Shown piece after piece: positions 27,396 through 58,533 of a stretch of 64,000 nucleotides of DNA. This DNA comes from Spiroplasma clarkii. Its GTDB lineage: Bacteria; Bacillota_I; Bacilli_A; Mycoplasmatales; Mycoplasmataceae. Both the position numbers and the translations under genes were made by a program. The notes beneath the pieces are model-generated. The model was not told where the DNA came from, searched no databases, and saw only the letters and a program-made list of their open reading frames with translations. Numbering within the stretch: the stretch's first letter is position 1; each line of letters starts with the position of its first letter. The stretch spans positions 248,001 through 312,000 of the forward strand of contig NZ_CP024870.1 of assembly GCF_002795265.1 (NCBI RefSeq). The letters run 5' to 3'.

Positions 27396-28682
27396 ATGAA
27401 ATTTAGTAAAAGTACAGAATTTTCAATAAAACTAACAGTTTTAATTTTTTTAATGGCTTTTTTAATTTTTGATTTTTTTGTGCAGTTATACTCCCCAAAA
27501 CATAACCTCACAGGTGTGCCATACTATCAAAGGTTAAATATTAACTATGCCTTTTTTACAACTCAATCTAACTATTTAGTGGTTGCTTACCTATTTTGTG
27601 TAGTTTTTTTAAAACAAAGTTACAACAAAAAACCACCCTTTGGAATTGAACTGGCAATTACAGTTTACATCACAGTGACAATGCTGGTTTTTTGATTTGG
27701 TTTGCTAGCCAGTCGAGATGAAATGAGTGCATATAACGCTATTAACTGAATTTCAACAGTGATGCTTCATGCAATCATTCCTTGTTTAATGATTGTCCAG
27801 TTTATTTTATCAAGTGGTGACTATTATCATGGAATGCGAACTCATGCAAGATTTGGAATGATTGGAATTTCTATGTATCCACTTTTCTACTTGATTTATT
27901 CAGTAATTAGAGGTGAATTTAGGTTCCAAGAATATGGTCCAAGTTTCTTTTCTAAGGTTTACTCATATAATTCAGTCACGAATACGTTTATTGCTGACTG
28001 AAATAAGGTCACAGGAGGAGGTTTTGGAGTTTATGTTGGTCCAAATATGCAACCCTTTACCTCACAGATGTGGTATCCATATTGATTCTTTAACTTACAC
28101 AAATATGATTTAGTGGCCTTTGATGAATTTGGAAACCCACATATTTGAGCCTCTTCTCAATTTAGTATGGGTTTGATGATTTTCTTCTTTATCTCAGCTT
28201 GCATAATTATCACTACTTTAGTAATTAGTTTACAGTTTTTTTATATTGCTATTAACAATAACAAGTTCTATCGTTGACACGATATTAATGAAAATCTTTT
28301 AACAAAAGCAGAACATGATTATCGTATGGCATTGCAAAGACAAAACCGTTATCAAAAAATACAAGAGTGAAAGAATGTGATTAAGTTACAAAGAACTGAG
28401 ACACAAGTTTTTAAACAAAACTTAGAAGGGCTTTCCACAGAAGAAAAAGCCCAATTAATTCTTGAAAGAAAGAATAAAAAAATACTACAACGAAAATTAA
28501 AAGTGGCTGAAATTAGAAATGCGCGGAATAAGAAACGCCAAACTCGTCGTGAAATTCGTTCAATGTTAACCAATGTTAAAACAGCAGATCGTGTTTTTAT
28601 CAAAGAAAATATCCGTGAGGCTGAACGTTACAAAAAACTTGTTAAAAAAGGTGTCTTGATTAGTAAATTAGAACCAGATTAA
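27396..28682 (+). CDS. Multi-pass membrane protein, DUF1600/Pr6Pr-like, with basic C-terminal tail
   Basis: 428 residues. Six or so hydrophobic segments in the first ~290 residues, including the stretch NINYAFFTTQSNYLVV, reminiscent of DUF1600/Pr6Pr membrane proteins. From about residue 300 the protein is cytoplasmic and strongly charged, rich in Lys/Arg/Glu, likely helical (QILERKNKKILQRKLKVAEI region). I do not know its function. GGAGGTG precedes ATG 27396. It is monocistronic between its own promoter and a terminator. Confidence 0.6.
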
Positions 28683-30758: not shown

Positions 30759-33485
30759 ATGGTACACCAAAGGGCTAGAAATTTACCAACTAAAGGAATT
30801 GTTGTTGAATGGTTATTCACAGATGATACCATTGCCTTTGGTGCTGACTTTGCTCGAGTTTTGCTTGAAGATGGGACTGACTTTATTGTTAAATCGAATT
30901 ACAATGGTGTTGTAGTTAAAACCATAAGACTAAATTCTCCCATTAAAAATGGCAGCATTTTAGCTAATGTACTTGTTGGGGAAAAAGAAATAGCCAAGTA
31001 TAAAAATAGAAATTTTTTAAAAGAGCATGTGCCTCCGCAAATAAATGAATTTATGCCAGAGGACTTTAAGGTTAGTGAAACCAATGGTTTTAATGATCTT
31101 GATGCAGAAACTAGTGGGGCACTAGTTTCTGGTGAAATCAGCGAACCTCAACCAGCTCTTTTACCAAAAGTTGAGGGGGAAACTATGCCAAGTCAAAGCT
31201 TAGACAGATTTGCACAAATGCGAGCAAATATTCGTGACTCAATTAAAAATGCTCCCCAAATTAAAAATGAAACACCCATTAGTCAAGAAGAACTTTTAAA
31301 AATGGATAAAGCAGCCATTGCCAAAGATGAGGGTGCCATTTTTTCAAAAAAAGATGGAGTAGGTCCAAGTAAATTTCGTCAACTAGTTAATGCTCGTAAA
31401 GAAGCCTTATTACAAGAAAATAACTTTAGAGAAGTTCAAGAAGAACCTGAACTTAATGCAATGTCAAAGACTGATGAAAAAGGTAGACCACTTATTATGA
31501 GAAATATTATTGCTGCCAGAATGGAAAAGTTAAATGATGCTGGTGGAGATGTCAATGTTTTAAGTAATGAGACAAATGATTCAACAAAGATTGGAGGTCA
31601 GAGTGAAATGATAAATAATAATATCAATGATCAAAATAAGGCACAAACTGATTTTCAGTCTGAACCCCAAGATATTGGTTCAACAACTTACAGAGGGACA
31701 GTTTTACCATCAGTAAACCCAAATCAATTAATGGGTGCAATTCAAAATAAGTCAAATAAAACTTATGCTGAAGCTAAACTAACAAATTTGTATGATCCAA
31801 CTAAAAGAAACTCAATTATTGCCAAAGGTAATGAGAGAAACATCATAAATCAAAGACGTCAAGCAGTTGAAGCTGGTTTATTAGATGGTAGCGAACCAAA
31901 AAACCCTGATTTGGCTTTTTGAAAAGGTAATTTACCAAAAGAGTTTGCTCAAGTTGTGCCTTATCAAACAGAGAGTGGTGACATTAAGTATGTTTCTTAT
32001 GATCAAACCCCTCAGGGAAAAATTGAACTAGCTGAGTGAATTAAAAATAATCAAAATAAAAAACCCCAACAGTATCAAAATCAAGCAGTTACACCCCAAA
32101 CAACTCCTAACTATAATTTTCAACCCCAAAGTTCTCCTTTGGATGTTACTCAAGAATGAGATCTTCATAATGCAACCCCAAAAGTATTGCAACAAGATTT
32201 AAACCAAAAATTAAACCAACAAGAGGTGCAATTAAAAGCGGTTGCTGGCAAAGAGGTAGCGAATGAAGCTATTGAGTTATTAAAAAAACAAATTGCAGAT
32301 TTACAAAGTTCTTTAGAAAAACAAAATCAGTTAAATGCAGCTACTCAAAGATTAAATGCAGCACCAACCTTTGGAGGAAACTATGCAGGTGGAACTGATA
32401 CATTTTCACAATTATTTCAATATATGATGATGCAAAATATTATGCAAAGTATGCCTATGAATAAAAATTCAAGTGAAGATGTTAAGGATGTTATTCGTCG
32501 TGAAATTGACAATTTCAAAAATGAATTAAGACCAGGTAATCAACATTATCACAATAGTCCCAATCAATGTTATTGTCAACAATCTCAACCTTACAATAAC
32601 TTTCCACCTCATGAACACCAATTTCACCAACCAAATTATCCAGGATTTGACCCTCACACCACACAACAATTTGGTGCTCAAAAGAAAAATTATGCTAATC
32701 AAGATTGAAATCAAATGCAAGCAGTCAATTTTGAAAAACCTCAAACAGAAACCACAGGCTATTTAGATTTTGAGGGTAGTGATGCTAACAAGATTGTTAA
32801 AAGAGAAAAAGTCAATAAAAACAGAAATGCTGCTGTAAAGTCAATGATTTTAAGCCAAAATTATATTCCACCATTGACTATTTCAACTGAAATTGATATG
32901 TCATCAATTTTGAAGTTAAAGCATGTTTTGAAAAAAACTCAAACAGAATTAAAATTTCCTTCAATTGCTTTTATAGCTAAAGCTATTTCTTTAACTTTAG
33001 GAGAATATCCAAAGTTAAATTCAAGTTATGATCCTGAAAGTAATGAAGTTATTATTAAAAAATACCACAATATTGGTTTAGCAACTGAAACAAGTGAGGG
33101 TTTAATAATTCCTGTCTTAAAATTTGTTGAAAAACTATCTGTTAAAGAAGTAGCAATTGATATTAAAGAGATGACACAACGTTTAAGAACAGGTGAACTT
33201 TACAATTATGAAACTGAGGGTAGTACTATTACAATTGCAAACTATGGAAGTATTGGAGCAATTCAAGCAACACCAACAATTTTTTACCCCAATGCTGCTG
33301 TAATTGGAGTTGGAAAAGTAATTAAAAAACCAGTGGTTGTTAGTGATGAAAAACTAGCAATTAAAGCCATTATGAATATGACTTTAACTGTTGATCAACG
33401 AATTATTGATGCAGCAGAAGCTGGGCAATTCTTAGCTAGGGTTAAAGAGATTTTAGAAAAACCTGAATTCTTAACAATGTCTTAG
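30759..33485 (+). CDS. E2 acyltransferase-like protein without lipoyl lysine or catalytic histidine, long Q/N-rich linker
   Basis: 908 residues. The N-terminal ~75 residues look like a lipoyl/biotinyl-type domain, but the usual TDK reads T40-D41-F42, so no lipoylation site is seen. Residues ~80-640 are a low-complexity, Gln/Asn/Pro-rich linker with a helical patch near 475-530. The C-terminal ~250 residues are an E2 (2-oxoacid dehydrogenase acyltransferase) catalytic fold: GLATETSEGLIIPVL, ITIANYGSIGA, AVIGVGKV. The catalytic HxxxDG reads QRIIDA (Q880, D884, A885), so transferase activity is unlikely. No E1 or E3 genes are nearby. A structural or scaffold role is possible. TAGGAG precedes ATG 30759. 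Confidence 0.75.
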
Positions 33486-33569: not shown

Positions 33570-33866
33570 AAAAGGCTAATTATATTAATTTTGAATAAAT
33601 TCTCAGTTTTTAAGAATATGTAGATTTGTTTTTGGTTATTTTAAAAAAAATTAGATTTATTTTAATTGTTTTTAGATTATCAAGATACTGATAGTGTATA
33701 ATAAATACGTAAAAACAAGAAACACTAAAATTAGATCAAAATCATGCAAGTCACTTAGTATTTTACTACAAACAATAGATTCAAATTATGGGGACAAATT
33801 ATGAAGTTAGAAGAAAAAATTGCAAAGTATCATCTTGAAGATTTAATAGATTTTAAACAATTAAAG
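33570..33866 (+). repeat. Duplicated leader plus gene start, copy 1
   Basis: About 230 bp of noncoding DNA and the first 66 bp of the following gene. Nearly identical to 34845-35131 except for a short variable patch near 33711-33745. It includes TATAAT at 33697-33702 and a conserved ~100-nt leader ending in a GGGGAC ribosome site. It accounts for most of the non-genic stretch 33486-33800; the rest is the terminator. Confidence 0.85.
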
Positions 33867-34721
33867 ATTGCTGCAAAACCTTTTTTATATGCAACTTTGG
33901 TCATAGCTATGGCATTATTAATTGAATTAATTTTGTCAACTTTTAGTTTTTTATTTCTTCTAATAGCACTTAATTTTTTGCAGAAACAAGAAGCCTTTGA
34001 TATATTTCAATCATTTGCTATTGCACTATTCTCTACATTAGCATTTTTAACAATTCTGCTTCAAATTAATATGGGAATCTATTTTTTAAAAATTTTAATT
34101 CAAGGAGAGTTACTTAAAAAAAATCAAAAACTTCAAGCTGAGGTAAAAAAAATTGACAAACAACAAATTTACAATAATATACTTACAGAAATACTGGGTG
34201 AAAAATCCTCAAGTTTTTTATCGACAGACTTGCTAATGAAAGACCTTTATAATAAGGTAGAAAATTTTCAAAACCAAGAAGTTGAAAAATATAATAATCT
34301 TAAAAGAGTTTTTGAAGTAAATAATCAGAGATTTGTTTTGGCCTTTTATTTTGAAAAAGCCAAAATTAGTGTTTGAAAAATCATTATTTTATCAATCATG
34401 TATCTTGCCTTTGCCTTTGCAGGAACAGGTCAAGATTTAGATCCCATGATAAATGATTATTCAAATGCAGATATAGATTTTGAAGCAGATTCTTGGAAAG
34501 TAAACAAGATCCCAGTCTATAGTGGGGTTTTATTATTTTATGATCAACAAAAGCAAACTAGTTCAGAATTTGTTAATTTAAATTGTACTAAAGTTAAAAA
34601 CTTTAAAATTGAAACCTTTTGTAAACTTGGACCTAGATTTACTGTCAAAAGGTCAATTTCAAGATTGATAAAAAGTTATGAAAAGGAAATTCTAGCCATT
34701 AAAGAAATCATTAATTCATAG
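33801..34721 (+). CDS. Membrane protein of unknown function, tandem paralogue A
   Basis: 306 residues. Two membrane segments near residues 28-55 and 68-98, a charged cytoplasmic region (about 105-190) with QIYNNILTEILGEKSSSFLS, a third hydrophobic segment near 196-210, and a hydrophilic C-terminus. The following gene is a paralogue with the same layout; only the first 22 residues are identical. I do not recognise the family. The start ATG 33801 is inside the duplicated block, preceded by GGGGAC. Confidence 0.65.
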
Positions 34722-34844: not shown

Positions 34845-35131
34845 AAAAGGATAATTATATGAATTTTGAATAAATTCTCAGTTTTTAAGAATATGTAGAT
34901 TTGTTTTTGGTTATTTTAAAAAAAATTAGATTTATTTTAATTGTTTTTAGGTTAACAAGGCACTGATAGTGTATAATAAATACGGAATACACAAAAATCA
35001 TTAAAATCATGCAGGGTACTTAGTATTTTACTACAAACAATAGATTCAAATTATGGGGACAAATTATGAAGTTAGAAGAAAAAATTGCAAAGTATCATCT
35101 TGAAGATTTAATAGATTTTAAACAATTAAAA
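34845..35131 (+). repeat. Duplicated leader plus gene start, copy 2
   Basis: Second copy of 33570-33866, including the TATAAT, the leader and the first 66 coding bases of paralogue B. The stretch 34722-35065 between the two genes is otherwise AT-rich with no reading frame. Confidence 0.85.
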
Positions 35132-35992
35132 GCAGCAACAAGACTTAAACAACATATAATTTTGACCATAGCCTTCTGAATATTATCTGAGTTGGGCATG
35201 TCACTTTTGGGTTGATTACTTGTCTGAGAAACAATTATTTTTATGAAATTCTGAAATTCAAGTGGTACAGGATACAAAATAATTGTTATATTATTTATTT
35301 CTGCAATATTTTTACTATCTGTTTTTCAAATCTGTATTTTTGGAAACTTTTTAAAAAGTTTAATTCAAGGAGAACATTTTAAAAAAAATCAAAAACTCAA
35401 GTATGAGGTAAAAAAAATAGATACTGAACAAATCTATAACAATATTCTAAAAGAAATACTGGGTGAAAAAAGTTCAAGTTTCTTATCATTAAACTCAAAC
35501 ATTAAAATATTTTCAAGTAGTGAAGAAACTTATAGTAATCAAGAATTTGAAAAATATAAGGATCTTAAAAGAGTTTTTGAAATAAACAACCAAAAATTTG
35601 TTTTAGCTTTTTATCTCGAAAAAGCTAAATTAAATATTTTTAGAGCAATGAGATTGGTTGCTTTGTATCTAACAATGGGAATATTGGTAGTTGCTGCGGT
35701 GACAAATCCAGCTATACTCTCAAGAGGTAATTTAACTTATACACCTGAGTCATGAAAAAAGAATTGATTCCCAATTTATGGAGGAACAATATTTTTTAAA
35801 AAGACTAGTCTTGATCAAGATAACTTAGCTGAGAATGAGTTTACTGATTTAAATGCAATTGAGATTAAAAAATTCAAGGTTGATGCTTTTCGTGAACTAG
35901 GACCTAGATTTATTTTAAAAAAATCAATCTTAAAACTAATAAAAAATTATGAAACTGAAATTCTCACAATTAAAGAAATAGTTAATTTATAA
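35066..35992 (+). CDS. Membrane protein of unknown function, tandem paralogue B
   Basis: 308 residues once TGA is read as Trp. The first 22 residues equal paralogue A. After that the similarity is moderate: two membrane segments near 28-55 and 70-100, then the shared QIYNNIL.EILGEKSSSFLS, FVLAFY.EKAK and C-terminal LGPRF blocks. The third hydrophobic segment is near 195-215. Function unknown. A duplication followed by fast divergence of the membrane part is the simplest history. Confidence 0.62.
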
Positions 35993-58344: not shown

Positions 58345-58420
58345 AGGGGTATAGTTCAGTTGGTAGAACATCGGACTTCAAATCCGAGTGTCGTGGGTTC
58401 AAGTCCTGCTACCCCTGCCA
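58345..58420 (+). tRNA. tRNA-Trp (anticodon UCA), reads UGA
   Basis: Cloverleaf with acceptor AGGGGTA/TACCCCT, anticodon loop CTTCAAA between TCGGA and TCCGA, discriminator G and encoded CCA at 58418-58420. The UCA anticodon decodes UGA as tryptophan, which explains the many in-frame TGA codons in this window. Confidence 0.97.
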
Positions 58421-58430
58421 GTCAGAAACC

Positions 58431-58455
58431 AAAGCCTCAATTTGAGGTTTTTTTT
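58431..58455 (+). terminator. Terminator between the two tRNA-Trp genes
   Basis: GCCTCA / TGAGGT stem with a tiny loop and a long T run. It overlaps nearly up to the second tRNA, so expression of the second tRNA may be reduced. Confidence 0.7.
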
Positions 58456-58457
58456 AT

Positions 58458-58533
58458 AGGGGTATAGTTCAGTTGGTAGAACATCGGACTCCAAATCCGA
58501 GTGTCGTGGGTTCAAGTCCTGCTACCCCTGCCA
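58458..58533 (+). tRNA. tRNA-Trp (anticodon CCA), reads UGG
   Basis: Same sequence as the preceding tRNA except one base in the anticodon (loop CTCCAAA). Encoded CCA at 58531-58533. The tandem pair arose by duplication and anticodon change. Confidence 0.97.

Follow-up and report, generated by a model that had tools for sequence, protein, structure and literature searches.

The window, a 64,000-nucleotide stretch of the Spiroplasma clarkii genome (1.56 Mb, translation table 4), carries at 30759..33485 on the + strand a gene for a 908-aa E2-like protein, and the features of the protein described below lie on the same strand. Four UGA codons within the reading frame are read as Trp (W388, W427, W467 and W650). 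The protein consists of a lipoyl-like domain, a linker of ~600 residues rich in N, Q and P, and an E2 acyltransferase core. This order, together with the open reading frame, had been proposed in the initial annotation and was borne out by the profile searches and AF2 models.

Residues 1–75 (30759..30983) form a lipoyl/biotinyl-type barrel-sandwich domain without the attachment Lys. A Pfam search of the protein gave no match for these residues, and a six-sequence profile of them detected BCCP and lipoyl domains at 2e-5. The AF2 model of the domain reached a pLDDT of 91–95, and VIA comparison with lipoyl/BCCP domains returned Z scores of 10–11.5 over about 70 residues. Alignment with 12 PdhC lipoyl domains placed a hairpin turn, D38-G39 (30870..30875), at the position of the lipoyl Lys, which PdhC carries within ETDK; members of the citri group have N-G at this position. 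No lipoylatable Lys was found in the hairpin anywhere in the family, a D/G/N turn standing in its place, and the only two members with a Lys adjoining the turn (L147 and L157) have it without the DK motif. The initial annotation, which had the lipoyl Lys replaced by Phe42, was right that a lipoylatable Lys is absent, and the same alignment ruled out Phe42 as the site, since this residue lies three to four residues past the turn.

The core (residues 680–906; 32796..33476) matched the 2-oxoacid_dh family (PF00198) with an E value of 4e-64, and matched G. stearothermophilus E2p (1b5s) at 1e-41 with 32% identity and the same fold. Structure prediction of this C-terminal region as a single chain likewise returned an E2 fold (AF2 pTM 0.72, mean pLDDT 69), with all top fold matches being E2 cores; as the mean pLDDT is only 69, the sequence match bears most of the weight for the identification. 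Judged by its residues, the core is catalytically dead. The DHRxxDG motif has become DQRxxDA at D879-Q880-R881-I-I-D884-A885 (33393..33413), so that Q880 and A885 had been read correctly from the start (QRIIDA for HxxxDG). The position of the catalytic His is occupied by Gln in 31/32 dead cores and by Arg in the remaining one (1/32), the Gly of HxxxDG is lost in all of them, and the Asp is kept in 29/32. A827 (33237..33239) probably corresponds to the Ser/Thr that stabilises the oxyanion in active E2, an assignment made from the motif and from PDB titles naming Ser558 and His610; this residue is Ala in 26/32 dead cores. In contrast, the H, D, G and T/S were all kept in the PdhC controls (41/41). 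No relative combines a His at position 880 with a lipoyl Lys. By hydropathy, no transmembrane segment was predicted in the 908-aa protein (maximum KD19 1.33), suggesting that it is not a membrane adhesin. The conserved C-terminus is hydrophobic, which is no more than suggestive of a putative assembly of the core into trimers or a cage.

The linker (residues 79–675) contains 27% N+Q+P and is far longer than in true E2, in agreement with its first description as Q/N/P-rich. Its dN/dS of 0.12–0.56 is looser than that of the core, with conserved islands within it, and four of its residues (F206, P244, R248 and R254) do not vary across 23 members. The best-conserved linker element of the family is the helical motif KFRQLVNARKEALLQE (residues 205–220; 31371..31418), which AF2 modelled as a helix over residues 205–220. 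A motif scan located a second copy, IMRNIIAARMEKLNDA (residues 246–261; 31494..31541; AF2 helix 247–261), and a weaker third copy, NERNIINQRRQAVEAG (residues 358–373; 31830..31877), which has a stronger counterpart in S. poulsonii at 522 (NQRELIKKRMEQIAKG). The 205–220 motif recurs in S. poulsonii at 420 and 522, in the Nebria symbiont at 215 and in G036 at 63, and in 5/5 proteins tested the second-best motif site scored above the 95th percentile of the second-best sites of shuffled sequences. Further along the linker are a heptad-like, coiled-coil-looking stretch read by eye from the sequence (residues ~478–535; 32190..32363), a Met-rich conserved stretch recognised by family comparison (TFSQLFQYMMMQNIMQSMP, with MMQYMLMQQMLKTM in S. 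poulsonii; residues 548–566; 32400..32456), and a poorly conserved tether rich in N/H/Q/P ahead of the core (residues 593–655; 32535..32723).

The gene stands outside the PDH operon and away from E1/E3 genes, as had been noted initially. A normal, live pdhC (TDKM, DHRIIDG) was found 56 kb away in the same genome, and the dead protein is thus not the sole E2. Around the dead-E2 gene lie pfl, adhE, coaD, pta and ackA, together with genes for a Pr6Pr-type membrane protein and an M13-type peptidase, all named by reading the sequence except Pr6Pr; uncharacterised genes lie downstream. In many Apis-group genomes and in genus g11, an ortholog of the Pr6Pr-type gene (27396..28682, + strand; 428 aa) lies immediately before the dead-E2 gene, and its product is a possible partner; the citri and Ixodetis groups do not keep this gene order. 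A link to the pta-ackA operon was dropped because that neighbourhood, too, is not conserved in these two groups. In Apis-group loci (L036, L042, L033 and others), two uncharacterised genes of about 320–430 aa and 140–220 aa follow the dead-E2 gene, an arrangement seen in about 18–21 loci; the two do not occupy this place in the window genome. The window also encodes tandem paralogous membrane proteins of ~306 aa with the same first 22 residues (MKLEEKIAKYHLEDLIDFKQLK) at 33801–34721 and 35066–35992, the first of which had no Pfam or NCBIfam match. ARAGORN reported a 'tRNA-SeC (tca)' at 58345–58533 beside tRNA-Trp (cca); under table 4 the former is the expected tRNA-Trp that reads UGA.

The core profile was then run against 320 genomes from 50 genera of the order. 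Forty-three genomes scored 338–468 bits, all of Spiroplasma lineages (genera g1, g6, g7, g8, g9 and g12, and family f9), and every PdhC scored at most 221 bits; the Spiroplasma assignment of all G-numbered genomes is inferred from their kinship with named ones. The dead E2-like protein was carried by every helical wall-less spiroplasma examined, and in the same scan the gene was absent from PDH-bearing Mollicutes outside the Spiroplasma lineages. Two divergent members (G029 and G036) were placed by phylogeny, the DQR/DRR motif and shared linker motifs. In G013, the gene appears as two overlapping ORFs (L045:5432-8005 and L045:7993-8265), through a frameshift or a sequencing error. The active-site substitution is kept in >40 orthologs and is therefore not due to chance. 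In a tree of 75 sequences, a single branch set the dead cores apart (93/88) and another did so for PdhC (89/93), so that one old inactivation is the simplest reading. The E3_binding domain (PSBD; PF02817) was detected in 0/23 members at E ≤ 0.1 and in 3/3 control PdhC. Core dN/dS was 0.01–0.10 in ten pairs, similar to that of the live PdhC of the same genomes, and across 18 genomes of the genus the dead protein averaged 85.1% core identity and live PdhC 84.0% (two genomes with divergent PdhC left out). By these substitution rates, purifying selection acts on the dead core as strongly as on live PdhC. A recent pseudogene was ruled out by the dN/dS values and the many intact orthologs. We found no description of a dead E2-like protein in Spiroplasma in the open-licence literature, an absence that is not proof; the family is real, conserved and, as far as could be found, so far undescribed.

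Among the 14 genomes of the citri group, nine had E1-alpha and PdhC, and five had no intact E1-alpha: G065, G067 (taken as S. phoeniceum P40), G068 (S. phoeniceum PmM2021), G071 and G072. In these five genomes, PdhC was absent or contained two stops, and the lipoate ligase was broken in G065, absent from G068, G071 and G072, and intact in G067. The dead E2 was full length (985–997 aa) in 5/5 of them, and each had 5–6 PF06723 matches. Among these five, the pairs with enough changes (those with G071) gave a core dN/dS near 0.1, the PDH loss itself being undated, and the G065–G067 pair differed by 4 synonymous and 8 nonsynonymous changes, too few to judge dN/dS. Judged from gene content, the dead E2 has proved independent of PDH, in the sense of dependence, on which retention after PDH loss bears, rather than of physical association. 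The protein is thus an E2-type pseudoenzyme that no longer depends on PDH. In four other genomes (G018, G020, G029 and G021; loci L095, L098, L106 and L114), the PdhC ORFs begin past the lipoyl domain and the adjoining PdhD (E3) carries one; in these genomes E3 seems to bear the sole lipoyl arm of the complex.

We compared the dead-E2 gene with MreB in 74 genomes, scoring MreB as PF06723 matches, some of which are DnaK. The 42 genomes with an intact dead-E2 gene had 4–9 such matches with a best E ≤ 1e-120, except G044. Nine genomes of the same family without the gene, from relatives of Mycoplasma/Mesoplasma type, had weak PF06723 matches only, and 7/9 of them keep PdhC; these genomes look like the non-helical Mycoides-Entomoplasmataceae descendants described previously (PMC8025503). 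In the Ixodetis-type family, MreB and the dead-E2 gene were both intact in G055, the MreBs had stops and the dead-E2 gene was intact in G044 (the Nebria riversi symbiont), an MreB remnant accompanied a broken dead-E2 gene in G060, and both were missing from G050 and G061. The latter two have lost PdhC as well, and general genome decay is therefore a confounder in this family. Fib was absent from G044 and G055, both of which carry the dead-E2 gene, indicating that MreB is the better correlate; Fib, considered as the partner, was ruled out as the sole correlate by these two genomes. Separately, the Fibril gene of G014 appears as two overlapping frames (G014:C1:424284-425815) in an otherwise complete genome. 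Counter-cases without the dead-E2 gene were G045, which has one strong MreB-type match, and three genomes of f5, where about five such matches were weaker (~1e-60). The dead E2 is co-distributed with the MreB set, with f5, G045 and G044 as exceptions, in a plain genome-by-genome count over few independent losses (each of two families contributes one or more). Among the 16 proteins of the S. eriocheiris fraction insoluble in Triton there is no E2-like protein (PMC5289999, Table 1), which argues that the dead E2 is not an abundant ribbon core under 0.8% Triton. A polar or membrane-side organiser stripped by detergent would still fit this list.

We give somewhat better than an even chance to the reading that a dead E2 has taken on a new role as a multivalent hub in the cytosol, linked to the MreB motility skeleton. 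An E2 gene would have been duplicated early in Spiroplasma evolution, and the duplicate would have lost the lipoyl Lys, the subunit-binding domain and the catalytic His and been kept as a large cytosolic scaffold. Studied E2 cores assemble into trimers or cages, and the dead core would still self-assemble into trimers, probably a cage, as those cores do. Two or three short FRxLVxxRxxxL helices would thereby be presented in many copies on the ~600-residue tethers, which would also bear the coiled-coil-like stretch, the Met-rich helix and the lipoyl-like head. Such a hub may cluster and anchor parts of the skeleton on which MreB-based shape and motility rest, perhaps at a pole or along the ribbon. 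Reuse of a dead scaffold as a structural or cytoskeletal element had been suggested initially; inactivity by sequence, independence from PDH, and co-distribution and parallel decay with MreB agree with the suggestion, and the scaffold role and cytoskeletal link are the best-supported guess, not a demonstration. Against this reading, walled bacteria use MreB and are not known to need a hub of this kind. A more specific version, which we consider unlikely, is that the dead E2 is the missing organiser of the tip ('dumbbell') or the ribbon anchor, its cage arms holding polar MreB filaments and setting the site where kinks start. M. capricolum supplied with MreB and Fib formed helices that kinked but did not swim efficiently, and it had no polar dumbbell (PMC9663586), which leaves a place for a polar organiser.

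A scaffold that is independent of PDH and lies outside the MreB skeleton, such as a hub of metabolic or condensate type, an assembly related to symbiosis or a factor in division/segregation, is possible but doubtful. Neither PDH independence nor conservation names a partner, the N/Q-rich linker could drive assembly alone, and the protein is missing from the Triton-insoluble cytoskeleton list (PMC5289999). However, such a scaffold does not itself predict the match with MreB presence or the parallel decay in G044, G060, G050 and G061, and with no transmembrane segment by hydropathy it would not be a membrane adhesin. Less probable again is a non-catalytic PDH accessory subunit like mitochondrial E3BP, whose dead core would mix with PdhC in the cage and whose linker would recruit or organise PDH components. 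E3BP is an inactive E2 paralog retained inside PDH cores (PMC10156792), the cores are homologous, and the gene lies near pta-ackA in Apis-group genomes; against this, the protein has no PSBD, its gene is outside the PDH operon and absent from Mollicutes having PDH, and it is full length in five genomes without a working PDH, four of which have no intact lipoate ligase. Because the protein stays full length once PDH is lost, the E3BP model fails as the sole explanation, and PDH accessory work as the only function is already largely refuted.

A residual or altered acyltransferase with a new substrate or chemistry appears very improbable: the core is strongly constrained and retains the Asp of HxxxDG in 29/32 members, but the general base His is gone from every member and the oxyanion residue from most, and neither a lipoyl-Lys donor nor a PSBD is present. 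The MreB-linked hub remains our preferred reading. The dead E2 would also be an E2 pseudoenzyme released from its metabolic complex, unlike E3BP. Helical swimming spiroplasmas have rebuilt their shape and motility from few parts, and the dead E2, distributed nearly as MreB is, is a direct candidate for a missing part of this machinery. Automatic annotation can name the dead E2 pdhC, and some PDH-less spiroplasmas may then wrongly seem to retain a part of PDH. In a 2025 paper, 'pdhC complete' is reported alongside a pseudogenised pdhA and missing pdhB and pdhD (PMC12453411), and the gene so named is presumably the dead E2.

Compared with the PDH E2 (PdhC/AceF, PF00198; closest solved core 1b5s), the dead E2 has the same domain order and core fold, whereas it lacks the lipoyl Lys, the PSBD and the catalytic His, and its oxyanion Ser/Thr is mostly Ala. 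Its linker is several times longer, and its gene lies apart from those for E1/E3 and persists in their absence. Mitochondrial E3BP (PDHX/protein X), an inactive E2 paralog retained in PDH for structural reasons (PMC10156792), is, like the dead E2 as judged from its residues, a catalytically inactive E2-type paralog. However, E3BP acts within PDH and carries a PSBD that binds E3, whereas the dead E2 has no detectable PSBD and outlives PDH. The citri group encodes a second dead E2 paralog (L062:3262-5517, L063:4777-6633), which likewise has a lipoyl-like head, a long linker and an E2 core with a degraded motif (YNEAVVDV); it forms a separate long branch (100/100), occurs in the citri group only, often lies beside and upstream of the PDH operon, and is kept in PDH-less genomes too, being truncated in G071. 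Fibril and MreB1–5, which serve helicity and swimming in Spiroplasma, have nearly the same phylogenetic distribution as the dead E2 and are also lost in non-helical descendants, whereas the dead E2 is unrelated to them in sequence and fold, is not in the Triton-insoluble list, and occurs without Fib in the Ixodetis-type clade.
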